From the NCBI RefSeq assembly GCF_000219535.2, contig NZ_CP007806.1, forward strand, positions 564,001-628,000: a stretch of 64,000 bases of DNA. The letters are read 5' to 3'. Below the pieces are notes generated by a model, which was given only the letters and a program-made list of their open reading frames with translations, was not told the DNA's origin and made no database searches. This DNA comes from Brevibacillus laterosporus LMG 15441. GTDB taxonomy: Bacteria; Bacillota; Bacilli; Brevibacillales; Brevibacillaceae. Position numbers and translations under genes: made by a program. Positions within the stretch are counted from its first letter, which is position 1, and each line of letters begins with the position of its first letter. This document shows positions 12,879 through 39,692 of the stretch, in pieces.

Positions 12879-12927
12879 GATGCAGCATATATCACAACCT
12901 TTGTGTGCGCAGATAGGAGGGGAGAAA

Positions 12928-13893
12928 ATGATTGTTCAAGCAGAAAATACAGAGCTTACAGATTTCAATGCAAATGTTCTACATCAAATCCTAGGTCATT
13001 CCTCTGTAGAGCCCTATGAGCATTGCGGCAGGATACCGTCCCATCTTGGCGAAGGTCATTTCAGTTGCATGCAGCTTCGGGACGGCATGGAATTGCAGAT
13101 GAGCGATATGATTTTATATGAGAACGTTTCGTTTGATGTAGGCATTCGCTATCCGCATCTTGAGCTTGCGTTTACGCTAGATGGGGGTGGGTATTTCTCT
13201 GTTGAGGGACAAAACAAGGATATTGTAACAGAAGCAGGTAGTGCCCAACTCGTTTATTTACATGATATAAGATTTCATGCCGAGCAAATCAAAGAAAGAC
13301 CAATTGTTCACATGGAGCTGCGCATGGATGCGAGGCTTTGGGGCAGCCTGTTTCCAAATATAAAGCTTGGGAATAATCAGTCCTTCCTCTATCTTCAGGA
13401 TACGATTCGTCCGAAAATGCAGGTTCTACTACAGCAACTGCGCAATTGTTCTTATAGCGGGTCAGCCAAGCGCCTTTATATGGAAGGAAAAACCTTAGAG
13501 CTTTTGGCATTATTTATCTATGAAATGGAAATGGGGCAGGTCAAAGGGCGCAGCAGGTTAAAAAAAGACGATATTGATCGAATTTATTTAGCTCGTGATA
13601 TTTTGATAAAAATGCTAGGCCAGCCACCCAGCCTGCTTGCTCTATCGAAATTGATTCATCTGAATGATTACAAGCTCAAGATCGGCTTTAAAGAAGTGTT
13701 TGGTATGACTGTATTTGAATTTGTTAGACAACAACGGATGGAAAAAGCGAGAATGCTATTGGAGAATAATAAGATTAGTGTCAGCGAAGCTTCCTCGCTC
13801 GTGGGCTATCATAATTTTAGTCATTTTGCCTCTTTATTTCGCAAAACATATGGTGTTAACCCAAGTGAATATGGCAAGAATGCTTTAAAGTAA
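12928..13893 (+). CDS. AraC-family transcriptional regulator (PchR/YbtA-like context)
   Basis: I start it at ATG 12928 behind GGAGGGGA (321 residues), not at the upstream ATG 12880. The C-terminal 100 residues carry two helix-turn-helix units: SLLALSKLIHLNDYKLKIGF followed by the conserved GMTVFEFVRQQRMEKAR, then ISVSEASSLVGYHNFSHFAS and RKTYGVNPSEY. The N-terminal 200 residues would sense a ligand. With a Fur box upstream and YbtPQ-like genes before it, the likely role is activation of iron uptake by the cognate ferric siderophore, as for PchR and YbtA. The ligand is not identifiable. Confidence 0.85.
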   Translation: MIVQAENTELTDFNANVLHQILGHSSVEPYEHCGRIPSHLGEGHFSCMQLRDGMELQMSDMILYENVSFDVGIRYPHLELAFTLDGGGYFSVEGQNKDIVTEAGSAQLVYLHDIRFHAEQIKERPIVHMELRMDARLWGSLFPNIKLGNNQSFLYLQDTIRPKMQVLLQQLRNCSYSGSAKRLYMEGKTLELLALFIYEMEMGQVKGRSRLKKDDIDRIYLARDILIKMLGQPPSLLALSKLIHLNDYKLKIGFKEVFGMTVFEFVRQQRMEKARMLLENNKISVSEASSLVGYHNFSHFASLFRKTYGVNPSEYGKNALK

Positions 13894-14178: not shown

Positions 14179-15054
14179 TTGAAGACATTTAAAAAGATGT
14201 ACATTGAAATTACTAGTGTTTGCAATCTTGCCTGTAGCTTCTGTCCACAAACAGGTCGACAAGCTAGGTTTATTAAGCTAGACACGTTTACCAATATTTT
14301 GGATCAAATTAAACCACATACAAAGCACATCTATCTTCATGTGAAGGGCGAACCGCTCCTGCATCCTAAAATTGATCAATTGCTAGATGTAAGCCATGAA
14401 AAGGGATTTAAGGTCAACATTACGACAAACGGAACCCTTATTCAAAAGAATCGTGCCAAGCTACTGGGTAAGCCAGCCCTGCGTCAAATGAACTTCTCGT
14501 TGCATAGCTTTGATGGTCATGAAGGCTCTGTTGATCGTGATAAATATTTATCCAACATTCTATCCTTTGTTCGAGAGGCGGCGGAGCATAATGTAATCAT
14601 ATCCTTTCGTCTCTGGAATCTGGATAAAGATAACGCAACGAATCTTCAAAGAAATAGGAACAGAGAGACCTTAGAGATGCTGGAAAAAGAATTTAATCTG
14701 GACTATAAGATTGAAGAAAAAGTAATTCCGGGTAGCGGGGTTAAGATTGCTGAACGAATTTATCTCAATCAGGATCATGAATTTGAATGGCCGAGCTTAC
14801 ACGCGCCCGAGGATGATGGAAAAGGCTTTTGCCATGCCCTTCGTACTCAAGCAGGAATCCTCGTGGATGGAACGGTTGTGCCGTGCTGTTTGGATGGGGA
14901 AGGTGTGATTAATTTGGGCAATGTCCAAACTACACCTTTCTCTGAAATCGTAGAGAGCGAGAGAGCAAACAATCTTTTTGACGGATTCTCAAGACGCGAG
15001 GCTGTTGAGGAATTATGCAGAAAGTGTGGATATCGAAAGCGGTTTGGAGCTTAG
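14179..15054 (+). CDS. Radical SAM/SPASM-domain protein
   Basis: The 291-residue protein starts at TTG 14179 behind GAGGAAC. The cluster motif CNLACSFC (Cys-x3-Cys-x2-Cys) at residues about 15-22 binds the SAM-cleaving [4Fe-4S] cluster, and LHVKGEPLLHP is the GEP-type SAM-binding strand. The C-terminus has a compact Cys set: FCHALRTQ, VPCCLDGEG and ELCRKCGYR, typical of a SPASM or twitch auxiliary cluster. Such enzymes modify peptides or proteins or act on small molecules. I find no short precursor-peptide gene within 300 bases on either side. It is an orphan between two terminators. Confidence 0.85.
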   Translation: MKTFKKMYIEITSVCNLACSFCPQTGRQARFIKLDTFTNILDQIKPHTKHIYLHVKGEPLLHPKIDQLLDVSHEKGFKVNITTNGTLIQKNRAKLLGKPALRQMNFSLHSFDGHEGSVDRDKYLSNILSFVREAAEHNVIISFRLWNLDKDNATNLQRNRNRETLEMLEKEFNLDYKIEEKVIPGSGVKIAERIYLNQDHEFEWPSLHAPEDDGKGFCHALRTQAGILVDGTVVPCCLDGEGVINLGNVQTTPFSEIVESERANNLFDGFSRREAVEELCRKCGYRKRFGA

Positions 15055-15371: not shown

Positions 15372-16118
15372 ATGGGTAAGGAATCGATTACAGTTGTGAC
15401 CGGATATCATTTTTGTATAAATAAAGAACGAATGAGCTCGAATAAATGGTTTGGCAAAATAAATGATATGGTATTCACCTCAACATATACACAAAAACCG
15501 TTTAAAATTCATCAAAAATTGACACCGTTTCTTCTGCAATCCGTTGCTTACGTTGTTTCTGTATTAAAGCAGAAAAATCTTTTACCCAGGCCAGATCGAA
15601 GAGGAGTCATTATGAATGTGCCTAATGCTGTCTCTGCAGAAATTGACTCTTACCTCAATGCTTTTCATCAACCGCGCAGAAGAATTAGACCTCATCAGAG
15701 CTTAGCTATCGATTCAAGTTCTCCAACCGCACTTGTTACACTTCAATTCAATTTTAAAGGACCCTCTGCCACATTAACTGATCGGTATGGCGGCTTGAGT
15801 GGTTTAGGTTGGGCATACAATCTGTTAAGGGAGAATCGTTCTGATTTAATGATAGTAGTTGATATAGACCGAGAGTCCTCCTTAACAGATGATTTTGTTG
15901 GAAGTATCAGCGTTGCGGCGTTAATAAAGGAGTCTTCCACGGGAGAAATAGCACCAGTTGGAAAACTAACGGATTGGACATTTGAATATCCGAGAAAAGA
16001 CAGTTTATACGGCAATAAACTAGAACAGGTAATGATCTGGCTGGAATCGGAAAACTCATCGCCATGGTTTGGTTATGTCGATCCTGACAACTGGGCAATT
16101 TGCTTTACGAAATCATAG
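15372..16118 (+). CDS. Half-size ketosynthase-like protein without the active Cys (chain-length-factor-like)
   Basis: The 248-residue protein resembles the N-terminal half of beta-ketoacyl synthases (PF13723-like). After FNFKGPSATLTDRYGGLSGL comes GWAYNLLRENRSDLMIVVDID, which matches the nucleophile elbow and following strand. At the place of the catalytic Cys there is Tyr139-Gly140, and the His/His half of a synthase is absent. It should be catalytically dead as a condensing enzyme and may pair with the intact ketosynthase 13 bases downstream, as chain-length factors do in type II systems. It is the first gene of the cluster. Function is inference. Confidence 0.7.
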   Translation: MGKESITVVTGYHFCINKERMSSNKWFGKINDMVFTSTYTQKPFKIHQKLTPFLLQSVAYVVSVLKQKNLLPRPDRRGVIMNVPNAVSAEIDSYLNAFHQPRRRIRPHQSLAIDSSSPTALVTLQFNFKGPSATLTDRYGGLSGLGWAYNLLRENRSDLMIVVDIDRESSLTDDFVGSISVAALIKESSTGEIAPVGKLTDWTFEYPRKDSLYGNKLEQVMIWLESENSSPWFGYVDPDNWAICFTKS

Positions 16119-16131
16119 GGGGGAGCACGGA

Positions 16132-17262
16132 ATGAGAGTGGGTATCGCTGGTTTAGGTATCGTTTCTCCTTATGGATTCGGTTTTGAGCTATTTGCCAAA
16201 GGTCTGCTTGCCGGGAAAAATGCCCTTGCCTCCTTAACAAGATTTGACGCCCAAGGGTTTCGATCTCAAATAGGCGGACAAGTTGACTTTCAAAGTGATA
16301 AATTGGAAGAATCTATAGCGCAAATTTGGTTGAACAAGGCCTTACAGGAGGCAATAGAGCAGGCAGAGTACAAGCTAGAGATATGGCGTGATTGCAAAAA
16401 AGCTATTATCTTACCAGTTGTCTGCGGGGATTCTATGTCTGGATTTGGAGAAAGGGCAGAGGTATGGGTGAAAGACCCTCTAGAGTTCCTCCCTTTTGAA
16501 TGGCGTGAGCAAACACCCGTACTACGTTTGTCAGCAGCATGTTCTTCTATCAGTTCTGCAATCGCAATGGCAAAAAGTCTTGTCTCACAAGGACAACTAG
16601 ATATGGTAATGATTGCACGAGCAGAACTTCTTAATGAATATGAATATGCTTCGCTCGATATTGTTAAGGCTATTTCAACTGAGACAGCGCGTCCCTTTGA
16701 TCAAAATCGTAGTGGGATTTTAATAGGAGAAGGGGCGGGGGTCATTTTACTTGAGTCAGAGGAATGCCTGCGAGATCGTGGGAAAAAGCCACTAGCCTGG
16801 ATAGATGGAATTAGTCATATCGTTAGTGGGTATGAAACAAATATGGTTGAGCTAGATAAAGACAGTGTGATACATACGATGTGTGAGGCGTTAGAGGATG
16901 CAAAACGTAAAAAAATCGATTGTATTCAGGCTCATGCAACAGGTACCCCTCAAGGTGATCTCGTTGAGGCAGTAGGCATTGTGGAGGCTATAGAGGAGGG
17001 GAGTATGATCCCGGTAAGCTCACATAAAGGGGCAATTGGACATTTGCTACGCTGTTCAGGAGTAATGGGATTAGCCGCAGGGGTCCTTTCTTTGCAAACG
17101 AACGTTATTCCAGCAACTCTTGGTTTGATAAATCTCGACCCGGCTTGTCCGGTTCAGGCGGTAATCGGACATAGTATGAAGGCAACAGTAGAGTCTGTGC
17201 TTATCAACAGTTTTGGCTTCTGCGGAAATTATGTGTCTATGGTAGTTACCTCACCTAAATAG
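16132..17262 (+). CDS. Beta-ketoacyl synthase (KAS II/FabF-like), active site intact
   Basis: I start it at ATG 16132 behind GGGGGGAG (376 residues); the frame extends upstream into the previous gene. The catalytic set is present: Cys137 in LSAACSSISS, His268 in QAHATGTPQGD, Lys299 and His304 in SSHKGAIGHLLRCSG. It should catalyse decarboxylative condensation of a malonyl thioester with an acyl or aminoacyl group held on a carrier protein. It is slightly shorter than FabF (about 410). Immediately upstream is the inactive half-size partner. The acyl substrate is unknown. Confidence 0.88.
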   Translation: MRVGIAGLGIVSPYGFGFELFAKGLLAGKNALASLTRFDAQGFRSQIGGQVDFQSDKLEESIAQIWLNKALQEAIEQAEYKLEIWRDCKKAIILPVVCGDSMSGFGERAEVWVKDPLEFLPFEWREQTPVLRLSAACSSISSAIAMAKSLVSQGQLDMVMIARAELLNEYEYASLDIVKAISTETARPFDQNRSGILIGEGAGVILLESEECLRDRGKKPLAWIDGISHIVSGYETNMVELDKDSVIHTMCEALEDAKRKKIDCIQAHATGTPQGDLVEAVGIVEAIEEGSMIPVSSHKGAIGHLLRCSGVMGLAAGVLSLQTNVIPATLGLINLDPACPVQAVIGHSMKATVESVLINSFGFCGNYVSMVVTSPK

Positions 17263-17336
17263 TGAGAAACATAAGCATTAGCAATGCATTGCGATATAAA
17301 AAATTTATAAGATCGTGTCGGAAAGTAGGATGAAAT

Positions 17337-18338
17337 ATGAGTTTGATACACGTTTCTAATCTACAGAAAGAATATGCTTATTACAGAAAGGAGGTTGGGT
17401 TGCTTAACTCTATTAAAAACCTATTCCATCGGGAAAAGCTGGTCAAGGAAGCGGTACAAAAAATTTCATTTGATATCGATGAGGGAGAGATGATGGCTTT
17501 TCTTGGACCAAATGGAGCAGGAAAAACAACAACTTTGAAAATTTTATCCGGCATCTTGCATCCCACTAGTGGAGAAGCAACTGTGATGGGGTATGTTCCA
17601 TGGGAACGTAAAAAGGAATTTAAAATGAAATTTTCGATTGTTATGGGACAGAAAAGTCAGCTATGGTGGGATTTGCCCGCTAATGAATCCCTATTTTTAA
17701 ATAAATTCATTTACGAAGTAGAAGATCGAGAGTATCAGAAGACGTTGGATGAGCTAACAGAATTACTTGATGTCAAGGATATTTTAGATGTACAAGTGAG
17801 AAGGCTTTCCTTGGGAGAACGAATGAAGCTAGAATTGGTGGCCGCATTAATTCATCGACCTAAGGTTATCTTCTTGGACGAGCCTACAATTGGATTAGAC
17901 CTTATCTCACAGAAGAGCATCCGTAAATTTCTAAAGTATTACAATGAAGAGACGAAGGCTACGATCATTTTGACAACACATTATATGAAAGATGTAGAAG
18001 ACCTTTGCAAAAGGGCTATTATTATCAATCAGGGAAAGATTGTGTATGATGGCAACTTAAATAAAGTAAACGAATTGCTGAATCAGAAGAAGCTCGTTAA
18101 AATTCAATTTTCTACCCCTGTTCCACAATCAGCTGTAGAAGCTTACGGAATTGTGAGGGAGCACAACGAATTTGAAAGTCTTATCGAGCTTGATCGTGAA
18201 TTTTTAAAGCAAAACTCTAAGCTGATATTGGAGCATTTGCCTGTAAGTGACATTAATGTAGAGGATATCCCCATCGAAGATAGCATTACGATTTTGTATA
18301 AGAAGGATGAGAAAAATGAGAAGGTTGCGCAGTTTTAG
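17337..18338 (+). CDS. ABC-2 type exporter ATPase (COG4586-like)
   Basis: The 333-residue ATPase has Walker A FLGPNGAGKTTTLK, a Q-loop (MGQKSQLWW), the signature LSLGERMKLE, Walker B VIFLDEPTIGLD and switch His in LTTHYMKD. It begins with an extended N-terminal segment typical of the COG4586 group, whose members pair with two different permeases (COG4587 and COG3694). The two permease genes follow with overlap and a 2-base gap. Together they should export the cluster product or confer self-protection at the cytoplasmic membrane. Confidence 0.88.
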   Translation: MSLIHVSNLQKEYAYYRKEVGLLNSIKNLFHREKLVKEAVQKISFDIDEGEMMAFLGPNGAGKTTTLKILSGILHPTSGEATVMGYVPWERKKEFKMKFSIVMGQKSQLWWDLPANESLFLNKFIYEVEDREYQKTLDELTELLDVKDILDVQVRRLSLGERMKLELVAALIHRPKVIFLDEPTIGLDLISQKSIRKFLKYYNEETKATIILTTHYMKDVEDLCKRAIIINQGKIVYDGNLNKVNELLNQKKLVKIQFSTPVPQSAVEAYGIVREHNEFESLIELDREFLKQNSKLILEHLPVSDINVEDIPIEDSITILYKKDEKNEKVAQF

Positions 18339-19137
18339 GAAATACATTCATACCTTTCAATTAGGGATACAGACAGCAGTGGAATATCGAGCTAATTTTG
18401 TGTTGGGAATTGTGGGAAGTGTATTCTCCATCACCATATTAACCTACTTATGGACAGCTATTTTTGATAGCCAAAGTCCCGGGTCTACCGTTTTTGGATA
18501 TACCTTTCAGGAGATGATCACGTATACACTGATTGCGGCAGTAACTGCCAAGATTATTCAAGCTGGTTTTGAGTATGATGTAGCGGAAGATATAAAGGAG
18601 GGTGGGCTTAACAAATTTATCATTAGACCGATTGGATATCTTCCTTACAAAATTTATTCGTTTCTTGGCTCTAAGCTAATTTATATTGTGGTCAGCTTTT
18701 GTTTAATCTTTCTCATTTTATTTGTCTTAAATAGACTGATCCAAGTAGAGATTAACCTCGTTAATATCGGTTATTTTCTGATTACACTCTTACTTGCTCT
18801 CGTATTAAACTTCTTTATCTTCTTTAGCATTACTACCATAGCTTTTTGGCTTGAAAATGTTTCTTATATTTTTGAAGCTCCGAAAATTTTGCTTGTAATA
18901 TTAAGTGGAGGGATTTTTCCGCTAGATGTCTTCGATGATACAATTCTCTCCTTTCTAAACTATTTGCCATTTAAATATACGGTCAATTATCCAGTAGATG
19001 TGCTTATTGGGAAGTACCAGGGGATAGAACTGGTGACAGGTATGGGGCTACAAGTATTCTGGATTATCGCTTTTGCTGTTCTCTCCAAATTGTTATGGGG
19101 CATCGGTATTAAAAAATATATAGCTATAGGTGGATAA
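18316..19137 (+). CDS. ABC-2 permease (COG4587-like)
   Basis: The protein (about 273 residues) has six hydrophobic segments and overlaps the end of the ATPase gene. ATG 18307 is also possible, but AAGGA sits at the right distance for ATG 18316. Features such as FEYDVAEDIKEGGLNKFIIRP, the cytoplasmic coupling loop, are characteristic of this permease group. It is one of two unlike permeases expected to form a heterodimer. Confidence 0.82.
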   Translation: MRRLRSFRKYIHTFQLGIQTAVEYRANFVLGIVGSVFSITILTYLWTAIFDSQSPGSTVFGYTFQEMITYTLIAAVTAKIIQAGFEYDVAEDIKEGGLNKFIIRPIGYLPYKIYSFLGSKLIYIVVSFCLIFLILFVLNRLIQVEINLVNIGYFLITLLLALVLNFFIFFSITTIAFWLENVSYIFEAPKILLVILSGGIFPLDVFDDTILSFLNYLPFKYTVNYPVDVLIGKYQGIELVTGMGLQVFWIIAFAVLSKLLWGIGIKKYIAIGG

Positions 19138-19139
19138 AC

Positions 19140-19952
19140 ATGGCATGGGTTAAAGAAGTGAAAAAAATGGTAAAAATTTACTATCTATTTTGTAAAAACT
19201 GCTTAATGGCGCAGATGGAATATCGTTTTAATTTTTTTGTCGGAGTCATTGTGGAGAGCGGTTTTGTATTATCCAAGTTGATTTATATCTTTGTGATATA
19301 CCAGTCAGGTTTGATTATTGAAGGATTAAGCAGAGACTCTATTCTATTGTTCTCAGGTACATTTATGCTGGTTACAGGGGTATATGTTAGTCTTTTCGTT
19401 GTTAATTTTTTTAAAATCTCAGAGGATTATATACACGAAGGAAAACTAGATTTATACATTACAAAACCAATATCCCTACAATTTCTTACCACAATGAGAT
19501 ATATAGATTTTGGCTTGGCGATTCCCAATCTGATTGTCGGAAGTGTGCTGTTGGTAATGGGATGGAGTCGATTAGGAATTGAGGTTAGCTTGGCTAATAT
19601 CGCAGGCTACACCCTATTTTTAATTGGAGGAATTGTAATTAGTTACACAGTCATGTTGATTCCGCACCTCTTTTCGTTTTGGTTTATTAAAACATCCGCT
19701 GTAAATGATTTGAGCAATGATATTTGGGAATTTGGGCACATGCCAGCAAGAATCTATGGTAAAACAATCCAGACCATCGGTATTTACATTATTCCGTTAT
19801 TTTTAGCGAGCAACTTTGGACCATTGTATCTCCTAAATCAATTAAGCGTGGTAAATATGATGTGGGGTATTCTTGCTCCGCTAGCATTGTTGCTTTTGAC
19901 TCGATTACTGTGGAAGGCAGCGGTTCGGAATTATTCTAGTGCAAGCAGTTGA
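19140..19952 (+). CDS. ABC-2 permease (COG3694-like)
   Basis: The 270-residue protein has about six hydrophobic segments and a coupling loop (EDYIHEGKLDLYITKPISLQF) parallel to that in the preceding permease. It starts 2 bases after the previous stop, so the two are translationally coupled. It completes the exporter. Confidence 0.82.
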   Translation: MAWVKEVKKMVKIYYLFCKNCLMAQMEYRFNFFVGVIVESGFVLSKLIYIFVIYQSGLIIEGLSRDSILLFSGTFMLVTGVYVSLFVVNFFKISEDYIHEGKLDLYITKPISLQFLTTMRYIDFGLAIPNLIVGSVLLVMGWSRLGIEVSLANIAGYTLFLIGGIVISYTVMLIPHLFSFWFIKTSAVNDLSNDIWEFGHMPARIYGKTIQTIGIYIIPLFLASNFGPLYLLNQLSVVNMMWGILAPLALLLLTRLLWKAAVRNYSSASS

Positions 19953-19978
19953 GTTTTTATAAGAGAGGTGAAAAATGA

Positions 19979-20986
19979 ATGAAATTCTCAGTTAGCTTTT
20001 TTTCGAACGTAAATGATACCACAGCCCAAAACATGCAGGATCACTATGAATTTCTATTCGAAGTAATCCAATATGCGGAGAAGAATGGCTGGTATGGTGT
20101 CTGGTTTCCTGAGAGGCATTATCATACCTTTGGTGGGTTATTTCCTAGTCCATCCGTTTTTGCAGCGGCTGTAGCAAGGGAAACAAAGAAACTTCGTATT
20201 CAAGTTGGAAGCGTCATATTGCCTCTCCATTCGCCCATTCGAATTGCAGAAGAATGGGCAATGGTGGATCAATTGTCAAAAGGGCGAGTAAGTATTTCCT
20301 TTGCTTCTGGCTGGAACCCCAACGATTTTAAAGAAAATCCAGAGCATTTCGATCAGCGGAAAATACGAATGTGGCAGGGAATAGAAAGGATTGAAAACCT
20401 TTGGAATGACAAAGAAACAGATGTAACTATATTTCCAAAACCCTATCAACAACAAATCCCGATTTATGTAACAGTAGCTTCTTCTAAAGAAACCTGTTAT
20501 GAGGCTGGAAAACATGGATACCATTTGTTAACCCATTTTATTTTTAATGATATGAATGATGTAAAGCAAAAGATTGAGTTGTATCATGCTGGATTACGTG
20601 AGGGAGGTCATAGCATAGAAGACAAAGATGTAACTATCTTGCTTCACACCTATCTTGATCATGATCTTGAAATGGTAGAAAAGACTGTAAAGAATGCTTT
20701 TTTTGAGTATCAGCATGCATTCCTGTCATTGGCAGAGATGATCCCCCATTATGAAAGTAAACGAGAAGAAGAGATTGCAAAAACAATGATGCTTAGGAAA
20801 TATTCTCCTCATTATTCCTTGCTAGGTACTCCAGAGACTTGTTCAACTGTATTGAGGAAGCTAGAGGAGATCGGGGTTACGCAAGTTGCTGCTCTGATAG
20901 ACTTTGGATTACAAAGACAGAAAATCATGGAGAGCTTGGAACGATTGCAGCTACTTGTAAAAGAGGAGAATGCCCAGACTATTTGA
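19979..20986 (+). CDS. Luciferase-like flavin monooxygenase of the MupA/Atu3640 biosynthetic type
   Basis: The 335-residue protein matches bacterial-luciferase-like flavin-dependent oxygenases. Evidence includes the first strand MKFSVSFFSN, GVWFPERHYHTFGG, the flavin-binding SVILPLHSPIRIAEEWAMVD and GRVSISFASGWNPNDF. The last two are typical of the subgroup found inside PKS and NRPS clusters (MupA/Atu3640 family). It should use reduced FMN and O2 to hydroxylate a substrate, possibly one bound to the carrier protein encoded next. BtrO in butirosin assembly is a precedent for an LLM enzyme working on an ACP-bound acyl chain. ATG 19979 is used because the ATG at 19975 is out of frame. Confidence 0.85.
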   Translation: MKFSVSFFSNVNDTTAQNMQDHYEFLFEVIQYAEKNGWYGVWFPERHYHTFGGLFPSPSVFAAAVARETKKLRIQVGSVILPLHSPIRIAEEWAMVDQLSKGRVSISFASGWNPNDFKENPEHFDQRKIRMWQGIERIENLWNDKETDVTIFPKPYQQQIPIYVTVASSKETCYEAGKHGYHLLTHFIFNDMNDVKQKIELYHAGLREGGHSIEDKDVTILLHTYLDHDLEMVEKTVKNAFFEYQHAFLSLAEMIPHYESKREEEIAKTMMLRKYSPHYSLLGTPETCSTVLRKLEEIGVTQVAALIDFGLQRQKIMESLERLQLLVKEENAQTI

Positions 20987-21004
20987 TGAAAGGGAATGGA
21001 AAAA

Positions 21005-21268
21005 ATGAAACAAGCGAAGATACGTAAAATCCTACAAGACCTGCTTGAAATCAAGGAACCTATTACTGAATGTGACGACTTAACAAAAATGGGGTTAGAC
21101 TCTATGACTACAATTCGTTTAATTGTAGCACTAGAGCAAGCATTTGATCTGGAATTTAGTGAGGAAGATCTCTTGTTGGATAATTTTCGAACTGTTGAGA
21201 AAATAAGTGGTTTAATCAATGTAAGACAATCAGAGAAATTAGTTTATACAGAAAAGAGTGAGTGTTAA
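21005..21268 (+). CDS. Acyl carrier protein
   Basis: The protein has about 87 residues (90 if the upstream ATG at 20996 is used; that ATG sits too close to AGGGA). The phosphopantetheine site is clear: KMGLDSMTTIRLIVALEQAF, with the attachment Ser in the DSM motif. It has four-helix ACP length plus a charged tail. Its stop codon overlaps the next start (TAATG), tying its expression to the amino acid:carrier-protein ligase. It is the only carrier protein in the cluster, so all tethered chemistry probably takes place on it. Confidence 0.9.
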   Translation: MKQAKIRKILQDLLEIKEPITECDDLTKMGLDSMTTIRLIVALEQAFDLEFSEEDLLLDNFRTVEKISGLINVRQSEKLVYTEKSEC

Positions 21269-22383
21269 TGAAAAAACAGTATCATGTAGCCGGAACACTT
21301 TCTCAATCGCAGGCAGAAGCGATTACTTCGAAATTGGTGTATAGTCTTGAGGGGATTTCTCATTGCTCCTTCTATCCTGAAACAAAGCAAATTGAAATTG
21401 ACATCGTTGATAAAAGCAAAGAAACACAGATTGACCAGGTTATTCAGACCATGATTGAGGAGCAAAAGGGTATACGTTCTTTTCCTAATCGGATCATACG
21501 AAAGACCGATGGAGACATCACAAAAATACGAATCAATGAGGAAGAAATGCTAGCAGAGTTTTCAGAGCTTATTCGAAAGGAGTCTGCTGTTACTTTATAT
21601 GAGGCATTACAACGTCTTTTTGCGGAATACGCAGAATCTAAACAAGCGAGGGCGAGAATATATTCGTCCTTAATTCCAAGACAGACAATGGAAAAATGCC
21701 AGTATGTGAAAAACTTCCCACAAAACCTTTATGTAGTTGCCGAATTTCCTCATGAGTATGAAGTGCTTAATCAGGTTGGTCAAACTGATAATTATGAAAA
21801 ATATACTCGTTGCAGTGAGTATCTTCTTTCACCAGCTCTATGTTTTCATTGCTATGAGGAGTATTCTAATCAGACATTGCATGAACCATTATTACTTAGT
21901 ACAGAAGGGATTTGTTTCCGTCATGAGGCACCATGGCGTTTGGGAAAACATCGACTTCATAATTTTCGAATGAGAGAGTTTGTTTTTATGGGGAATGAGT
22001 CCTTTGTCGAAGAAACAAGGTCCTTTTTTTTAGATTTGATATGGAAATTATTTGTTGATTTAGGATTTAATGGTTACATAGAGACGGCACATGATCCCTT
22101 TTATTTTCCTCATCATGCTGAGAAAAGTCAGTATCAGCTAATGGCTCACATGAAATATGAGCTAATTATCTCAACTGACATGGGGAATTTTTCAATTGCG
22201 TCATTTAATAATGTAAAAGACACGCTATGTAAAGAGTTTGGCATTACTGAACCAAACGGTTCAATATTGCATTCAGGATGTGTGGCTTTTGGGATTGATC
22301 GGTGGGTATATGCCTTGCTGGCTGTATATGGTACACAGCTTCATGAATGGCCTGCTCAGATAAGAGAAATCTTGGATTTATAA
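21268..22383 (+). CDS. Amino acid:[carrier protein] ligase, class II aminoacyl-tRNA-synthetase-like
   Basis: The 371-residue protein starts at ATG 21268, overlapping the ACP stop by one base. Residues 180 onward match the Bll0957/Atu2573 family, homologues of archaeal-type seryl-tRNA synthetase that load amino acids onto carrier proteins instead of tRNA. The zinc ligands expected for that family are present: Cys192 (LLSPALCFHCYE), Glu220 (ICFRHE) and Cys338 (SGCVAFGIDRW). Motif 2 (FRMREFVFMG) and motif 3 (GCVAFGIDRWVYALLA) are clear. Characterised members use glycine or alanine. Residues 1-90 form an extra N-terminal part not needed for catalysis, perhaps for ACP docking. The tRNA-binding arm is absent. 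Confidence 0.85.
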   Translation: MKKQYHVAGTLSQSQAEAITSKLVYSLEGISHCSFYPETKQIEIDIVDKSKETQIDQVIQTMIEEQKGIRSFPNRIIRKTDGDITKIRINEEEMLAEFSELIRKESAVTLYEALQRLFAEYAESKQARARIYSSLIPRQTMEKCQYVKNFPQNLYVVAEFPHEYEVLNQVGQTDNYEKYTRCSEYLLSPALCFHCYEEYSNQTLHEPLLLSTEGICFRHEAPWRLGKHRLHNFRMREFVFMGNESFVEETRSFFLDLIWKLFVDLGFNGYIETAHDPFYFPHHAEKSQYQLMAHMKYELIISTDMGNFSIASFNNVKDTLCKEFGITEPNGSILHSGCVAFGIDRWVYALLAVYGTQLHEWPAQIREILDL

Positions 22384-22422
22384 ATTCTTACCTTTAGATA
22401 AATAGAAGGAGGCTTATTACTA

Positions 22423-23628
22423 ATGATTTTTGCTACAAACGAAAGAGACGTGCAATTAAAACGATTGGACAAGCTTATTTCAGGAATCCGAACGAATAAA
22501 GCAGAACTGTTAGAAATTTTAACGGAGATTGCTACTTATGATAGTGCTGAGGCTGAGATAGAATCTTCCCTCTCTACTCTACTTGGAGCTGAACAGGAAG
22601 TGGAGCGCTACAATCCTCCTTCTATTAATCGGATTGCAGTTTATCATTCATCAAACGTTTTGTTGTACTCCTATGTCTTATATGCTGCTATTCCAAGTTT
22701 ATTTTGCAAGGAAATCTTGATTAGACCCTCTACAAAAGCTTTATCTACAATGGTAAAGCTTCATGATTTCATAATGAAACAGGCGGACATGCCATCTCAG
22801 CTACTTCCTATTTCTCAACGGAAATTTAAAGAACAGGCAGGACAGCCAGATGTAGTTGTCTTTACTGGAAATTATGAGAATAGTTTGAAGGTGCAAAAAA
22901 CCTATCCACACTCTTTGTTCTTGTATTTCGGAGCGGGAATTAATCCATTTATCGTTGGACAAAAAGCAAATCTAGCAGATGCTTCTAAGCGAGCTGTGGC
23001 TGCACGCGTCTATAATTCGGGACAGGATTGTATGTGCCCCAACGTTTATTTTGTCCACGAGAATATTAAAGAGAATTTTCTATCTACACTGATTCAGGAC
23101 ATTAAAGAATTACGCATTGGTAAGCGAAATGAACCAGGAAATGTAATAGCTCCGTTATTTTATGAGGGGTTGTCAGAGCAGGCACAGGAGTATTTCACAC
23201 CAATAAAAGATCGTATTGTTTACGGTGGATCGGTGGATGTGTCCAGTAATTATGTAGAGCCTACTGTTGTCGTGTCCTCTCTTGAAAAAATTGGTGAGGT
23301 AATTGAGTTTTTCTGTCCGATCTTTCATGTTGTAACCTATCGAGATGAACAAGAGGTAATAGATTGGTTACATGCTCCTGAGCGTATAGAGAGTACTCTT
23401 GGTGCTTCTGTTTTTGGAATACCAGAATTAGCTGAAAAATTACGCTCTACCCACATCGTGTCAGAAAATGTAAGCCTGTACGATATTGAAAACGGAAATA
23501 GCCCGTTTGGTGGTTATGGTTTACAGGCAAATTATGTGTGTTATCAGGGAAGTTTTACTAGTCGTCCTCTTTTAATCTCCAAAGAAGTATCAGTCGCATT
23601 CAACAATAAGGAACTACATCATTCATAA
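22423..23628 (+). CDS. Aldehyde dehydrogenase family protein, short and lacking the general-base Glu
   Basis: The 401-residue protein has the ALDH nucleophile motif NSGQDCMCPN (Cys203) and the C-terminal NSPFGGYGLQ segment. It is about 80 residues shorter than usual at the N-terminus. Where most hydrolytic ALDHs have ELGGKNP, it reads YFGAGINP, so the general-base Glu is missing. Loss of that Glu is usual in acylating (thioester-forming or reducing) members such as methylmalonate-semialdehyde dehydrogenase. It may therefore interconvert an aldehyde and a thioester. AAGGAGG precedes ATG 22423. The substrate is unknown. Confidence 0.78.
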   Translation: MIFATNERDVQLKRLDKLISGIRTNKAELLEILTEIATYDSAEAEIESSLSTLLGAEQEVERYNPPSINRIAVYHSSNVLLYSYVLYAAIPSLFCKEILIRPSTKALSTMVKLHDFIMKQADMPSQLLPISQRKFKEQAGQPDVVVFTGNYENSLKVQKTYPHSLFLYFGAGINPFIVGQKANLADASKRAVAARVYNSGQDCMCPNVYFVHENIKENFLSTLIQDIKELRIGKRNEPGNVIAPLFYEGLSEQAQEYFTPIKDRIVYGGSVDVSSNYVEPTVVVSSLEKIGEVIEFFCPIFHVVTYRDEQEVIDWLHAPERIESTLGASVFGIPELAEKLRSTHIVSENVSLYDIENGNSPFGGYGLQANYVCYQGSFTSRPLLISKEVSVAFNNKELHHS

Positions 23629-23648
23629 CTAAAGAAGGATGTGAAATA

Positions 23649-25364
23649 ATGGAAGCAGTAGAAAGTCTGACGATCTGGGATGCTTATGCGAGAGTACTTG
23701 CAGAACAGGGCATAACAAAGCTGTTTGGTATGGTGGGAGATGGTGGGGGGTTAATTGAATCCGCTTATAAAAAAGAAGGAATAGGCATTTTCACGGCACG
23801 TGACCAACGAATAGCGGTTGGAATGGCAATGGGGCATGCTCAGGTATCAGGGAGTCCAGCCGTGCTTGTTACTAGCCCAGGACCTGGAATTGCAAACTGC
23901 ATAATGGGTGTTTTAGAGGCATATTCGGCCGCTGTACCTTTAATTATTATCTCCAATGCTACTGCACGGAACATGCGCGGTGAAGGGGCATTTCAAGAAA
24001 CCAATTCCATTGCCATGATGCAACCCGTGACTAAATGGTGTTATCGTGTAGAGCATCCAGAGAAAGCCATTTGGGCTTTGCGACGTGCTATTTTTTTAGC
24101 TGTTAATGGAAAACCGGGGCCAGTCTATCTTGAGATTCCAGATGATCTAACATGGATGGAGCTAAGCAGTGAATCGTTCTCTGATGCTGATAAAAGAAAC
24201 CTTGATGAACAAGGACCGATTTTTTCGCAGCCTGAAGAAGAGAGTATACGTAATTTATTCGCTCAACTAACGAAAGCAAAGCGTCCTATCCTCCTATTAG
24301 GCGGGGGGTGTCAACATCGGCCATTTGTGTCTGAATTAACAATCTCTTTAGCAGAGGCACACGGATTAGCTATCTTTACTACAGCATCTGGAAGAGGAAT
24401 CGTAGATGAGAGGCATCCCAATGCTTTTGGAAATGTAGGCTTGTATACGTTACCGCAAATCAAGAAGCTCCTTTTTGAGGCAGATTTGATTATAGCGATT
24501 GGAACTCAGTTAGAGGAGACAGCTTTAATGGGATGGAAGGAGGCCTTATTACATTCATTCTTTGTACATATTGATTGCCATTATGAGTCGCTGGAACGTT
24601 CTGTTCATGCCAATTACAGGTTGCTTGGAGATGCCCAACTGTCTTTGCAACTCTTGTGGAAAATGTCAAGCGAGAATCTGAATTGGATTACGACTAACAA
24701 AAATGAGTGGATAAAAAGAATGCAGGAGGTAAAAAAAGAAGCTCTGTCAGTATGGGCAGAAGTAGAAGATATAAAAGCACCTGTGAGAAGGATGCTTAAG
24801 GGAATCGAACATGAATTTGGAGAGCATGTCATCTTGGTTCAAGATAATGGGCTACATGATATGTGGGGATATTCGTATCCTGTTTATACGGTGGCTCCGC
24901 CCAGCCGCACAGTGGTTCCCGGTGAACAAACAGCCCTAGGTTTACCGATGGGTATATCCTTAGGAGCTAAGATTGCTGCTAGAAAAGCGAATGTTATTGC
25001 TTTACTTGGAGACGGTTCGTTTGAAATGGGATATTCAGCTGTGGGGAGTGCCGCTGAGCATCAATTAGGTATCACTTTTATTGTCATAAATAATGGTGGA
25101 TTTTCTTGGCCAAGATTTCAGCAAAGCATGAGCGAAATAGAAATAGGCTGCTCTTTTCAAATAGAGCTAGACTATGCAGCTTTAGCTAAATCGGTTGGCG
25201 GCTATTATGCTAAACTGACTGACCTAAATGAGTACCAAAATGCATTAAAAGAAGCAAGGCTGTATACAGAACAAAATAAGATTGCTTTGCTAGAATTAAT
25301 AGTTAGTTGGGACCAGGATTTACCAATTACGGTGATGATGCAATATGGAGACAAAGAACAGTAA
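23649..25364 (+). CDS. Thiamine-diphosphate enzyme, acetolactate-synthase-like, with Glu-to-Gln change
   Basis: The 571-residue protein has the three ThDP domains. The N-terminal PYR domain includes LFGMVGDGGGL and TSPGPGIANCIMGVLEAY; the C-terminal PP domain includes LLGDGSFEMGYSAVGSAAEH and NNGGFSW (the GDG...NN cofactor motif, about residues 454-482). At the position of the catalytic Glu (RHEQ in acetolactate synthases) the sequence is ARDQRIAVGMA, so Gln53 replaces it. Glyoxylate carboligase is a known ThDP enzyme without that Glu. Likely reactions are decarboxylation or carboligation of a 2-oxo acid feeding the pathway. It starts 20 bases after the ALDH gene. Confidence 0.82.
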   Translation: MEAVESLTIWDAYARVLAEQGITKLFGMVGDGGGLIESAYKKEGIGIFTARDQRIAVGMAMGHAQVSGSPAVLVTSPGPGIANCIMGVLEAYSAAVPLIIISNATARNMRGEGAFQETNSIAMMQPVTKWCYRVEHPEKAIWALRRAIFLAVNGKPGPVYLEIPDDLTWMELSSESFSDADKRNLDEQGPIFSQPEEESIRNLFAQLTKAKRPILLLGGGCQHRPFVSELTISLAEAHGLAIFTTASGRGIVDERHPNAFGNVGLYTLPQIKKLLFEADLIIAIGTQLEETALMGWKEALLHSFFVHIDCHYESLERSVHANYRLLGDAQLSLQLLWKMSSENLNWITTNKNEWIKRMQEVKKEALSVWAEVEDIKAPVRRMLKGIEHEFGEHVILVQDNGLHDMWGYSYPVYTVAPPSRTVVPGEQTALGLPMGISLGAKIAARKANVIALLGDGSFEMGYSAVGSAAEHQLGITFIVINNGGFSWPRFQQSMSEIEIGCSFQIELDYAALAKSVGGYYAKLTDLNEYQNALKEARLYTEQNKIALLELIVSWDQDLPITVMMQYGDKEQ

Positions 25365-25431
25365 GTATGTCTCATGGGAACATTCGATTAAAAAAGGTAT
25401 GTAGATGTCTAAATAAGCTAGGAGGAATCCC

Positions 25432-26394
25432 ATGAATCTGGCTATTCCCACACACCACCCTGTCATGTATAACAAGCGAAAGGAATTTTTAGATTGCTTA
25501 GAGTATCTTATTTGTTCTTATATTCAAGGATTTGGAGTGCCGTATCACTGGCTTTTGTCCGACAGATGGGGATTTTATTATCGAAGCATCGATGATTTTA
25601 CAGCAGCCAAGGAAGAGGTATTAATACCTTTTCCAGATACATTACAAAAAATTTACAAGGCAGAGTTCCTTCATTATGAAAAACGAGAGCTATTGGATGT
25701 AGTGAAGGAAACCATTAATCAAAATCGACATCTTTTCACTGTTGTGGACGGTAGATTCTTTCCATGGTATACAGATATGGAAATTTTCTCTCATTTTGTT
25801 TTAATTCAAGACTATGATCCTGTATCCAAGCTTTTTTATATAACAGATTTATGGCCGTATGAATTTTCTGACTGGTTCCCGATTGAACCTACCAAACAAG
25901 CTTATGAAGTAGAAGGTAGGTATAGCTTTACATTGACCGAACCATCCCTACAAATCAATGACGAACTGCTTCGACAGCAATTTAGGTCCGTGTGTAACAA
26001 AATTAATGGTACTGATACCGGATATGTGGGCTATCTCAGCGGACAAAAAGCACTCCTTGCGTGTCAGCAAGATATGATATTACATGGGAAAGACTTAGGA
26101 GCTCATCTGGATAAAATATTTGACATGTTAAAACGAGTAATAAACTATCGAGATGGATTTCTTGAATTCATTTTATATGCAGATCAGGATCAAACAAGCC
26201 CAGTTTACAAGGAAATAGACCCGGCACTAATTATTTTAGTAGAAGAGACGGTAAATGTTTGGGCTGTCTTTCGAAATTACTTAATTAAGGCAAAGGTTAC
26301 AGGAAGCACTAATTTTCAAAAACAGATTGATTGGGTGAATAAAATCATTGAAAAAGAAAAAGAAGTTTATGAAAAAATAATCAAATATTTCTAA
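25432..26394 (+). CDS. BtrH-like acyltransferase/papain-fold protein, first copy
   Basis: The 320-residue protein has a papain-like triad in the order of BtrH_N domains: Cys22 in DCLEYLICSYIQGFG, His121 in SHFVLIQDYDP and Asp139 in FYITDLWP. An all-helical C-terminal half follows. BtrH moves an acyl chain from a carrier protein to the amine of an aminoglycoside, so this protein may transfer the ACP-bound chain to an amine. Similar folds are also peptidases (C39), but there is no precursor peptide here. AGGAGG precedes ATG 25432. Assignment is by motif order and context. Confidence 0.6.
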   Translation: MNLAIPTHHPVMYNKRKEFLDCLEYLICSYIQGFGVPYHWLLSDRWGFYYRSIDDFTAAKEEVLIPFPDTLQKIYKAEFLHYEKRELLDVVKETINQNRHLFTVVDGRFFPWYTDMEIFSHFVLIQDYDPVSKLFYITDLWPYEFSDWFPIEPTKQAYEVEGRYSFTLTEPSLQINDELLRQQFRSVCNKINGTDTGYVGYLSGQKALLACQQDMILHGKDLGAHLDKIFDMLKRVINYRDGFLEFILYADQDQTSPVYKEIDPALIILVEETVNVWAVFRNYLIKAKVTGSTNFQKQIDWVNKIIEKEKEVYEKIIKYF

Positions 26395-26426
26395 ATTGAT
26401 AGAAAAGTAATTGAGGTGCTTGAACA

Positions 26427-26996
26427 ATGGATATGAGAGAGGCACATATAATTGATTTGGCATCCATTTATAATACAAAAGGAGTATCAATCCAAGACCC
26501 AAAGCTGGTTGCTCAGCTGGATCATATACACAGCAGCATTCCAGGAGAGATATTTCCAAGCGATGAAGTAATTTCATACCAAGGAATCCCTTTTGCCTTT
26601 CCATTAACTGAAGCGGTTGATAACGATGTTATAAGTTGTGATGGCCAAATCGTTGAAGTAAACGCTCAAAGGTCCTTTCAAACCTTAGCTTTCCTCGGTT
26701 TTTCATTATTTGGCGATTATCAGGATAAATTTACAATTCATTATGCGGATGGGGTGGAAGAAGAAGTGCGATTTGGTTTAACTAACTGGAAACAGTATAA
26801 AACTGGAACGCCACTATTTGGAGAGCAGATAGCGATGTCTCTCCCCTATTATGTAGAGAACATGATCCTTACTGAACTTCCAAGAACCGTTTGGCTGCAA
26901 AAAGTAACTCTTCAGCATTCGGGGCACATCAAGCAAGTTATACTGCCAAGAAATCCATATTTGATTGTAATTGCTCTTACCCTGTGTAACGTATAG
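26427..26996 (+). CDS. Single-domain beta-sandwich protein, carbohydrate-binding-like
   Basis: The 189-residue protein has no signal peptide and no catalytic motif. Its pattern DLASIYNTKGVS, PSDEVISYQGIPFAFP, DNDVISCDGQIVEV, TLAFLGFSLFGD and FTIHYADGVEE closely follows beta-sandwich domains found at the C-terminus of secreted glycosidases (NPCBM-like group). Here it stands alone and should be cytoplasmic. It lies between the two BtrH-like genes with GAGGTG before ATG 26427. It might bind the product, the acceptor or the enzymes. I assign no function. Confidence 0.55.
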   Translation: MDMREAHIIDLASIYNTKGVSIQDPKLVAQLDHIHSSIPGEIFPSDEVISYQGIPFAFPLTEAVDNDVISCDGQIVEVNAQRSFQTLAFLGFSLFGDYQDKFTIHYADGVEEEVRFGLTNWKQYKTGTPLFGEQIAMSLPYYVENMILTELPRTVWLQKVTLQHSGHIKQVILPRNPYLIVIALTLCNV

Positions 26997-27028
26997 AGCC
27001 TACAGGTTGGAAAGGAAGCGTTACAGCA

Positions 27029-28174
27029 ATGAAAATACCATTTCTACCAGAAAGAAAAGCTCCTTACTACTCTATTTGTCTTCATGTCATCTTGCATGAG
27101 CGATTAAGGAATGAGGGAATGACTAGTTTTCTTAGCTTACATCCTAATCTAGAGATGTATAGTGTAACAGTTTATTCTAAGAAACAAGACACAATCAACA
27201 TGCAGTATGGTTTATGGGATGAATATATAGATTCTTTCCGTTTAGGTAAGCTGGGTTACGGAATCAGCCCAGAGCATATGGGTTATGAAGTAGAGAATAT
27301 CTCGTTTGCTTCCTATGAGGAAGGAAAACAAGCTATTATGCATAATATTCAAAACGGAAAACTTTCGTTGATTGGTGCTTCATATTTTCACCTGCCTTAT
27401 AGCGAATTTTATCATAGTGATAAGTATCTAATAAATTACAGTAGTCTCCACCCCGGAATTACGAAGCATTGGATATCTGTATATGGGATAGATGAGCAGA
27501 AAGCACTGATCTATGATGGTGTTCCGGGAGATTACGTTGGGAGTATACAACTTCAGGACTTTGAAGCGTGCTGGCGTGGAGATCGAGCTATAAAACAATT
27601 AGAAAACAATTCGAAAGTACAGGGGAAAAAAGAGTTTCAAATGCTACAGCTATATGAAGTTTCAAAAATAGAACAAAGTGATGTTATGAAACTAATGGAG
27701 AGTGTAGCCACTACAGTTGCTTTTGAATATACTCGGGGGTTGATCATTCGAGAAAATAACGAAACACATTACTTTGGAAGAAGTGCAATTCATCAGTTAG
27801 TAGAGGATTTGGGCTCCTATTTACAGGATGATCAACTAGGCGGGGAACACCTTTCTGATTATGGTCAAGCTGTTTTGGAAATAAAACTGATGCGCTACTA
27901 TTATCTGGATTTGCTTAAAGATTTGGTAATGTTATACGGTTTTGTTTATGAGGAGGACTTGGCCCAGTTTGAGAAGATTGTGAAACGATGGGAAGTCATC
28001 AACATTGGTCTGATGAAGCATATTTTACGACAGTCACCACTTAAAAAGTTTTTAAAAACAACAATTGAGTCAATAGAGCAAGTGGGGATGCAGGAGAATC
28101 AATTTTTTATTGAGTTTCTTCACAGACACTCTCATATTTCCTTAGTAGAGCCCATAAAAACAATCCAAATATGA
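27029..28174 (+). CDS. BtrH-like acyltransferase/papain-fold protein, second copy
   Basis: The 381-residue protein repeats the architecture of the gene two positions upstream, with low similarity. Candidate triad: Cys17 in YYSICLHVIL, His147 in GITKHWISVYGID and Asp163 in LIYDGVPGDYVGS, then a helical C-terminal half. Two such proteins in one cluster would suit two successive amide-forming transfers from the carrier protein. The Cys assignment is less certain than the His and Asp. GGAAAGGAAG precedes ATG 27029. Confidence 0.55.
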   Translation: MKIPFLPERKAPYYSICLHVILHERLRNEGMTSFLSLHPNLEMYSVTVYSKKQDTINMQYGLWDEYIDSFRLGKLGYGISPEHMGYEVENISFASYEEGKQAIMHNIQNGKLSLIGASYFHLPYSEFYHSDKYLINYSSLHPGITKHWISVYGIDEQKALIYDGVPGDYVGSIQLQDFEACWRGDRAIKQLENNSKVQGKKEFQMLQLYEVSKIEQSDVMKLMESVATTVAFEYTRGLIIRENNETHYFGRSAIHQLVEDLGSYLQDDQLGGEHLSDYGQAVLEIKLMRYYYLDLLKDLVMLYGFVYEEDLAQFEKIVKRWEVINIGLMKHILRQSPLKKFLKTTIESIEQVGMQENQFFIEFLHRHSHISLVEPIKTIQI

Positions 28175-28199
28175 TCTCCCAGAGAAGGGAAGAAGCGGC

Positions 28200-29555
28200 T
28201 TGATAAATTATGAGGTTTTTGTTGGTAATACATCCTATACAGCACTTATTAAACAAGAAATACAACAGCTTACGCTTTGTATGAATCATCAGGGAGTTTC
28301 AGCAGGTAATCTGGTTGCGATTGCTATTCACGAACCCATCTCTTGGTTGGTTGCCTATTATGCCTGCAAAGAACTGGAGGCAGTTCCTGTTGTGATCGGA
28401 AAGGTGGCCGAATTAGATAAACAACTGGAGATAGTCCGAGCTGACTATGTGTGCTATACAAGCGATCATTATAAGATACAAATTGAGAGCCTATCTGTGG
28501 TAAAGGAAAGAAATATACCTAGCAATACAGGGCTCATCTGCAGAACCTCAGGCTCAACTGTAGGAATGCCTAAATATGTAGCCTGGAGTAAAGAAGGGAT
28601 TACGTATCAGAAACAGGAGACGACACGAGTATTCGGATACAAAGAGGGAGAACGGCTTCTTTTTACATTGCCACTTTGGGGAGCTTATGGATTAAGTATT
28701 GTGGGAGTTTTGGAACACAACAGTATGGATTTGGTTATTCCTGCTAATTTACGTCCGCGCTCCATAATTACCGTTCTGGAAAAGCAAAACGTCTGCTGGG
28801 TAGAAAGCGCTCCTTTTTTTTATCAAACTATGCTTCCTTATCTATTAAAAGAGCAGAGAGGGATTGAAGAAATTGGAGTAAAGGGATGGGGCTGTGGAGG
28901 CGACCTGCTTACCCATACTTTTGTTCAACAATGGGTGAAAATGACAGGGGTTCCCATATTGGATGGTTATGGATTAACGGAAGCGGGTCCTAATGTATCA
29001 CTGAATCGTCCTTATGATTATTGTTATGGAACCGTCGGCAAACCTCTTAGCGGAACAGAAATCAATTTTTCTGAGGATAGAGAGTTGTGGGTTCGAAGCC
29101 CTTCAGTAATGCTAGGTTATTATGCCAATGGACAAGTAGATGCTTCGATGCTTCATAATGGATGGCTGTCTACTGGTGATATGGCAACGAGAGATGAACA
29201 TGGATACGTGACTATTTTGGGAAGAAAAAAGAATATCATTATTGTCAATGGATATAATGTCAGCCCGGAATATGTGGAAAGAACGATCAGAGAACATCAC
29301 GGAATAAGAGACGTAGCTGTTGTAGGGGTCCCTCATCCAACACGTGGAAATCGATTGTGTGCTTTTGTAGTGGGGGATGCTTCTCTTACAAAAAGAGATA
29401 TTGACCTATTTATAAAGGATAAGGTAGACGAGCCTTCCCGACCAAGTTTTTATGAAATAATCCCCCATCTACCGGTACTTGCTAACGGAAAGACAGATCG
29501 AAATCAACTGAAAGCGATAGCTGAAGTCCGATTTGGTCAAGAAAGTTTCGCGTAG
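28200..29555 (+). CDS. AMP-forming acyl-CoA/acyl-ACP ligase (ANL superfamily)
   Basis: The 451-residue protein starts at TTG 28200 behind AGAAGGGAAG; the nearby ATG is out of frame. Core motifs are present: CRTSGSTVGMPKYV (phosphate loop), DGYGLTEAGP (A5), WLSTGDMATRDEHGYVTILGR (A7-A8) and the C-terminal catalytic Lys in LANGKTDRNQL (A10). It is somewhat short because the N-terminal subdomain is reduced. It should adenylate a carboxylic acid and pass it to CoA or to the cluster ACP. It is the last gene of the cluster and is followed by a strong terminator. The acid is not predictable. Confidence 0.85.
   Translation: MINYEVFVGNTSYTALIKQEIQQLTLCMNHQGVSAGNLVAIAIHEPISWLVAYYACKELEAVPVVIGKVAELDKQLEIVRADYVCYTSDHYKIQIESLSVVKERNIPSNTGLICRTSGSTVGMPKYVAWSKEGITYQKQETTRVFGYKEGERLLFTLPLWGAYGLSIVGVLEHNSMDLVIPANLRPRSIITVLEKQNVCWVESAPFFYQTMLPYLLKEQRGIEEIGVKGWGCGGDLLTHTFVQQWVKMTGVPILDGYGLTEAGPNVSLNRPYDYCYGTVGKPLSGTEINFSEDRELWVRSPSVMLGYYANGQVDASMLHNGWLSTGDMATRDEHGYVTILGRKKNIIIVNGYNVSPEYVERTIREHHGIRDVAVVGVPHPTRGNRLCAFVVGDASLTKRDIDLFIKDKVDEPSRPSFYEIIPHLPVLANGKTDRNQLKAIAEVRFGQESFA

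Positions 29556-38264: not shown

Positions 38265-39692
<1,428 letters not shown>

Follow-up and report, generated by a model that had tools for sequence, protein, structure and literature searches.

A synthetase-like amino acid:carrier protein ligase in a 14-gene cluster of Brevibacillus laterosporus: candidate loading step of an NRPS-free type II pathway

The pathway roles of synthetase-like amino acid:carrier protein (aa:CP) ligases are poorly known, and a cluster of 14 genes in the soil bacterium Brevibacillus laterosporus LMG 15441 offers a bounded test case. It lies in a stretch of 64,000 nt (contig NZ_CP007806.1, positions 564,001 to 628,000, forward strand), hereafter the window, to which all unprefixed coordinates refer. 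Here, the gene of an acyl carrier protein (ACP) overlaps that of such a ligase (20996-22383). On balance, this gene pair probably serves to load an amino acid in a type II carrier-protein pathway, free of non-ribosomal peptide synthetases (NRPSs), in which the tethered unit is oxidised and then transferred by papain-like enzymes. The gene pair, its conservation, the protein families, the active-site residues and the limits of the cluster were all established by computation. The ligase appears to be an enzyme of an already known kind; what would be new is the variant of pathway that it feeds, with amide formation by papain-like proteins. The interpretation given in a first-pass annotation of this DNA is partly supported.

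The ACP/ligase gene pair

In the TAATG at 21266-21270, the ACP stop codon TAA ends at 21268, which is the first base of the ligase ATG, so that one base is shared. The ACP gene starts at ATG 20996, with an alternative ATG at 21005. The first-pass annotation had ACP and ligase ‘fused by overlap’: the overlap holds, but the wording is loose, since these are two polypeptides. An identical one-base overlap occurs in three orthologous loci (L002, L003 and L018; four loci including the window), and this retention indicates that the arrangement is real and conserved rather than due to chance. The ACP carries its phosphopantetheine site at Ser36 (GLDSM). True one-frame ligase–ACP fusions are found elsewhere (L020:9420-10853 and L021:8789-10279, both on the minus strand), in two genomes of one genus and beside purine genes.

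The family first proposed for the ligase is supported by profile matches, to Pfam tRNA-synt_2b (E 1.2e-7) and to the NCBIfam model NF005479 ‘amino acid--[acyl-carrier-protein] ligase’ (E 2e-41), and by alignment with its closest solved relative, Bll0957 (E 1.8e-28; PDB 3mey and others). As its NF005479 score of 142 bits misses the model cut-off of 357, the protein is best classified as a distant subfamily of the aa:CP kind and not as an NF005479 equivalog. The zinc set Cys192/Glu220/Cys338 was predicted at exactly the right positions; it aligns with that of Bll0957 and is invariant in 12 aligned sequences. Class II motifs 2 (FRMRE, 233-237) and 3 (GIDR, 342-345) are both found, as anticipated. 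Thus, the ligase shares with Bll0957-type enzymes a class II core like that of seryl-tRNA synthetase (SerRS), the Cys-Glu-Cys zinc set, both motifs and an adjacent ACP gene. It differs from them by its distant sequence, its place outside the Bll0957 clade and an additional N-terminal domain. Only from residue 107-109 onwards is the ligase homologous with Bll0957 and type-2 SerRS; the extra N-terminus therefore exists, with a length of ∼105 residues and not 90 as first estimated. Nor is it peculiar to this ligase, because relatives from Bacilli and Streptomyces (L019, L021, L022, L028 and L029) align along it. The ligase may lack the tRNA-binding domain of SerRS, as first proposed. No Pfam family matched residues 1-105, and the AlphaFold model of the ligase is poor.

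In a tree of 22 ligases, Bll0957 forms a clade (100/100) with sequences from rhizobia and Burkholderia and a single one from Brevibacillus, apart from the window ligase. Well-supported groupings are limited to this clade, the L024/L031/L034 clade and the L020/L021/L022/L029/L030 group. Many forks of the tree, including the deeper ones, stay open. Orthologues of the ligase are 88-97% identical between genomes of two genera. Sister ligases in L029 and L031 adjoin genes for a 3-hydroxyacyl-CoA dehydrogenase and an acyl-CoA dehydrogenase. In zwittermicin biosynthesis, a set of this kind makes aminomalonyl-ACP from serine. Because sister ligases adjoin a zwittermicin-like dehydrogenase set, the specificity of Bll0957 is not simply transferable to the window ligase. 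Reading glycine specificity from pocket residues was dropped for want of a calibrated code.

Related ligases occur in other surroundings. In Paenibacillus herberti (L004:8303-10723), a ligase core (62% identical) is fused behind a PPDK_N (pyruvate phosphate dikinase N-terminal) domain, with a BtrH-like gene near. The genome of LMG 15441 itself holds one more ACP/ligase pair, which is divergent and comes with a gene that looks like ATP-grasp (L026, C1:2757500-2777000). A Streptomyces decoyicus plasmid (L028:13083-16092) carries a related ligase and ACP beside a glycine amidinotransferase, dpg genes and a PGM1-related peptide ligase.

Extent and conservation of the cluster

The cluster consists of 14 co-directional genes (15372-29555) with intergenic gaps of -50 to 74 bp, the value of -50 bp holding only if the ketosynthase (KS) gene starts at TTG, which is unlikely. 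Its limits were set by comparison of loci, not by annotation. In L002, from B. laterosporus, the gene order is the same and identities are 93-99%; they are mostly 85-97% in L018 and 71-96% in L003 from Aneurinibacillus, again with unchanged order. Aneurinibacillus and three genomes of the B. laterosporus group share the whole block from the KS partner to the AMP-forming acyl ligase (AMP-ligase), and its conservation in both genera indicates that the genes travel together. Two upstream genes, of AraC and radical SAM type, are absent at the Aneurinibacillus locus, whose flanks contain apparent transposase remnants. The features are as follows; the last two lie outside the 14 genes.

15372..16118, + strand: degenerate KS partner (KS-beta, AmcG position), 248 aa, without the catalytic Cys motif; ketoacyl-synt E 0.0013 only
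16132..17262, + strand: KS; Cys158, His289 and His325, numbered from TTG 16069, the likely start being ATG 16132; fabF E 1.4e-55
17337..19952, + strand: ABC exporter (ATPase 17337-18338; permeases 18307-19137 and 19140-19952); ABC_tran, ABC2_membrane_6
19979..20986, + strand: FMN-dependent luciferase-like monooxygenase, MupA/Atu3671 family; TIGR04020, PuwE 6ket
20996..21268, + strand: ACP; PP-binding E 1.1e-11, Ser36
21268..22383, + strand: aa:CP ligase, class II SerRS-like; Cys192/Glu220/Cys338, ∼105-residue N-domain
22423..23628, + strand: aldehyde dehydrogenase (ALDH)-like protein; Aldedh E 1.3e-27, Cys203 kept, general-base Glu replaced by Tyr168
23649..25364, + strand: acetolactate-synthase-like thiamine diphosphate (ThDP) enzyme; TPP_enzyme N/M/C, cofactor-activating Glu replaced by Gln53
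25432..26394, + strand: second BtrH-type papain-like acyltransferase; Cys22, His121 and Asp139, by profile comparison
26427..26996, + strand: 189-aa protein without Pfam match; 25% relative in Alkalihalophilus locus L029
27029..28174, + strand: BtrH-type acyltransferase; BtrH_N E 1.5e-7, Cys17, His147 and Asp163
28200..29555, + strand: AMP-ligase, 451 aa; AMP-binding E 3.8e-29
14179..15054, + strand: radical SAM/SPASM protein, probably accessory; retained within the B. laterosporus group, missing at the Aneurinibacillus locus
12880..13893, + strand: AraC-type protein, possible cluster regulator; HTH_18 E 2.3e-18

This content, which includes no modular NRPS, suggests a carrier-protein-based type II pathway, and the context was indeed the informative part, as first assumed. 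Promoter and terminator scans remained at chance level, and plasmid searches for relatives of the 25432, 27029 and 15372 proteins found none. The 189-aa family recurs at L029:10436-11002 (Alkalihalophilus; match at 10454-10996, E 4e-8) and hence stands beside BtrH, ligase and ACP genes in two unlike clusters.

Papain-like transferases and the monooxygenase

The 27029 protein matches BtrH_N above the Pfam cut-off, with Cys17, His147 and Asp163 on the catalytic columns. The formerly anonymous 25432 gene is, on profile evidence, a second BtrH-type acyltransferase gene, giving the cluster two such enzymes, both with Cys-His-Asp. Comparison (hhalign) of a four-row profile of the 25432 protein with 29 BtrH-family proteins gave a probability of 98.6 and E 5.4e-16 over 285 columns; as controls, six unrelated window proteins and five shuffles all stayed below a probability of 1, and the 27029 protein, a member of the set, reached 100. 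In this alignment, Cys22, His121 and Asp139 fall on the BtrH catalytic columns. Searched against Pfam BtrH_N, the 25432 protein has no match, and its best orthologue (L003) a weak one (E 0.062). BtrH is an ACP:aminoglycoside acyltransferase (PMC10318531). Butirosin BtrH and the window transferases have in common the BtrH_N papain-like family, Cys-His-Asp and genes clustered with that of an ACP. Differences are the presence of two divergent copies in the window and the apparent use of a synthetase-like ligase to load the amino acid.

The flavoenzyme encoded upstream of the ACP reaches 342 bits against TIGR04020 (cut-off 244); among solved structures, PuwE (6ket, E 1.1e-76) matches it best by a wide margin. 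By these matches it belongs to the MupA/PuwE family, whose members oxidise next to thioesters. The acyl product of PuwE has a 2-hydroxy group beside the thioester, and the monooxygenase domain, by bioinformatic assignment, helps to make a 3-amino-2-hydroxy acyl unit (PMC4219810). In contrast to MupA/PuwE-type enzymes, the window monooxygenase stands alone, beside a synthetase-like ligase and not within an NRPS or polyketide synthase module. Its stop codon lies 9 bases upstream of the ACP start, a gene order that suggests action on the ACP-bound unit.

A parallel exists in rhizobia. The order in Rhizobium gallicum is ACP, acyl-CoA dehydrogenase, ligase and DUF1839. DUF1839 is papain-like (PMC10318531), and its Agrobacterium member is predicted to join an aminoacyl group to an amine (PMC2922099). 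Where Bll0957-type contexts have acyl-CoA dehydrogenase and DUF1839, the window has the monooxygenase and the BtrH-type transferases. By analogy, both clusters may be read as one scheme built from different parts, with loading, oxidation while tethered and papain-like transfer. The initial comparison with Bradyrhizobium and Agrobacterium enzymes is right as to family; judged by gene context, the nearest functional analogue is also BtrH-type (butirosin-like) acyl transfer.

Ketosynthase pair and AMP-ligase/ALDH/ThDP triad

The KS retains Cys-His-His. Against the model of cispentacin AmcF it gives E 2e-40 and 138.8 bits, below the cut-off of 325, and its partner has no match to the AmcG model. 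Among 399 Bacilli genomes, this degenerate partner was found in 4, each of which carries the cluster; in one of them (G003, L018:2667-3409) its gene is frameshifted after residue 191, and the remaining cluster looks intact. The AmcF-AmcG pair makes one C2 extension on one ACP (PMC10698177). Resemblance to the cispentacin/coronafacic acid system lies in a competent KS beside a degenerate partner, one ACP and one AMP-forming acyl ligase. The window differs by the KS score below the AmcF cut-off, the partner without AmcG match and the lack of visible AmcC, AmcD and AmcE counterparts.

A triad of AMP-ligase, ALDH and ThDP enzymes (22423-25364 and 28200-29555 in the window) recurs in six other Bacilli loci, by sequence relationship. 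Relatives of the ALDH, with 36-43% identity, are present in seven further Bacilli genomes, and in all six loci read (L077-L082) the ALDH gene lies between AMP-ligase and ThDP genes related to those of the window. In five of these six loci, the gene after the ThDP gene encodes a KS of FabH or FabF type, called by model in L077, L079 and L080 and by near-identical sequence start in L081 and L082. Every copy examined shares the same active-site changes. In 8/8 aligned ThDP sequences, Gln (DQR) takes the place of the Glu found in acetolactate synthase (HEQ); in 8/8 aligned ALDH sequences, the general-base Glu is Tyr or Phe and the catalytic Cys is kept. Glyoxylate carboligase is a natural exception for the ThDP Glu. 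Conservation of these changes across copies argues for altered chemistry rather than decay, and the triad may represent a general way in Bacilli to handle an acyl unit.

Proposed pathway and alternatives

The substrate of the ligase, the step order, the acceptor and the product are our inferences. By family, the ligase would activate a small amino acid, with glycine favoured, as aminoacyl-AMP in its zinc-bearing site and attach it to the phosphopantetheine of the ACP encoded next to it. The tethered unit could then be oxidised beside the thioester by the MupA/PuwE-type flavoenzyme. The AMP-ligase, the ALDH-like protein and the ThDP enzyme may make a second acyl unit, which the KS pair would extend, as AmcF-AmcG do by one C2 unit. 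The two BtrH-type transferases, by means of Cys-His-Asp, would move ACP-bound acyl groups to amines, one amide each, and the ABC transporter would export the product. Several facts weigh against this pathway. A single ACP must serve two acyl units, or else an ACP from elsewhere is needed; 142 bits against a cut-off of 357 put the ligase far from the characterised family, which makes its specificity uncertain; and AlphaFold gave poor models of both the ligase and the 25432 protein (mean pLDDT 39-40), with nothing reliable gained from them.

Other destinies of the aminoacyl-ACP have to be considered. Reduction instead of transfer is quite unlikely: the ALDH-like enzyme would free an alpha-amino aldehyde, which the ThDP enzyme would couple with a 2-oxo acid donor to an amino-ketol. 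The ACP, ligase, ALDH and ThDP genes follow one another without interruption (20996-25364), and the ALDH has lost the general base for acyl-enzyme hydrolysis, as expected in a thioester-linked reaction. However, the six other Bacilli loci pair ALDH and ThDP genes with an AMP-ligase gene and fatty-acid-type genes, which makes the AMP-ligase the regular partner, and no aa:CP ligase relative was detected in the stretches read. That ligase and ACP act on a cell-envelope target, the rest of the cluster being unrelated, follows an earlier proposal for rhizobial operons (PMC2922099); it is improbable for 14 tightly spaced, co-directional genes that are jointly present in Aneurinibacillus. Divergence of the ligase from studied members, and nothing else, favours a decayed, inactive synthetase, an idea hardly compatible with the retained zinc set and motifs 2/3 and the 88-97% identity across genera.

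At the level of the product, the proposed carrier-protein pathway can be refined to spergualin. This compound is the parent of the drug gusperimus and contains a C7 guanidino acid. Spergualin is an alpha-hydroxyglycine product of B. laterosporus (PMC10204066). Glycyl-ACP from the ligase would be alpha-hydroxylated by the monooxygenase after N-acylation, and the two BtrH-type transferases would join the glycine unit to spermidine and to a 3-hydroxyacyl chain from the KS pair. It is tempting, though speculative, to see here the gene cluster of spergualin-type compounds, with the glycine of alpha-hydroxyglycine supplied by a synthetase-like ligase and not by an NRPS, and with amides made by two papain-like transferases. 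The producer species group fits, as the cluster occurs in the three B. laterosporus-group genomes having this ligase type. The bonds of spergualin are matched by two candidates for amide formation, a single KS pair and a monooxygenase of the thioester-adjacent type. What is missing is a source of the C7 guanidino acid, and no guanidine-forming enzyme was found: no glycine amidinotransferase relative was detected in genomes G000, G003, G004 and G107, other enzyme families not being excluded. The protein query used does find relatives below 60% identity in plasmids; it replaced Pfam ADI (PF02274), rejected as a probe after missing the annotated glycine amidinotransferase of L028. Moreover, simple decarboxylation of arginine followed by C2 extension gives a C6 chain only, and the cluster is without keto reductase. 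No published spergualin gene cluster was found in the open-licence literature. That spergualin, or a compound closely related to it, is the product is accordingly unlikely, and the cluster stands as a testable candidate for the origin of spergualin.

Elsewhere in the window, 38289-39692 encodes a collagen-like protein with GPT/GAT repeats that looks to be of exosporium type.
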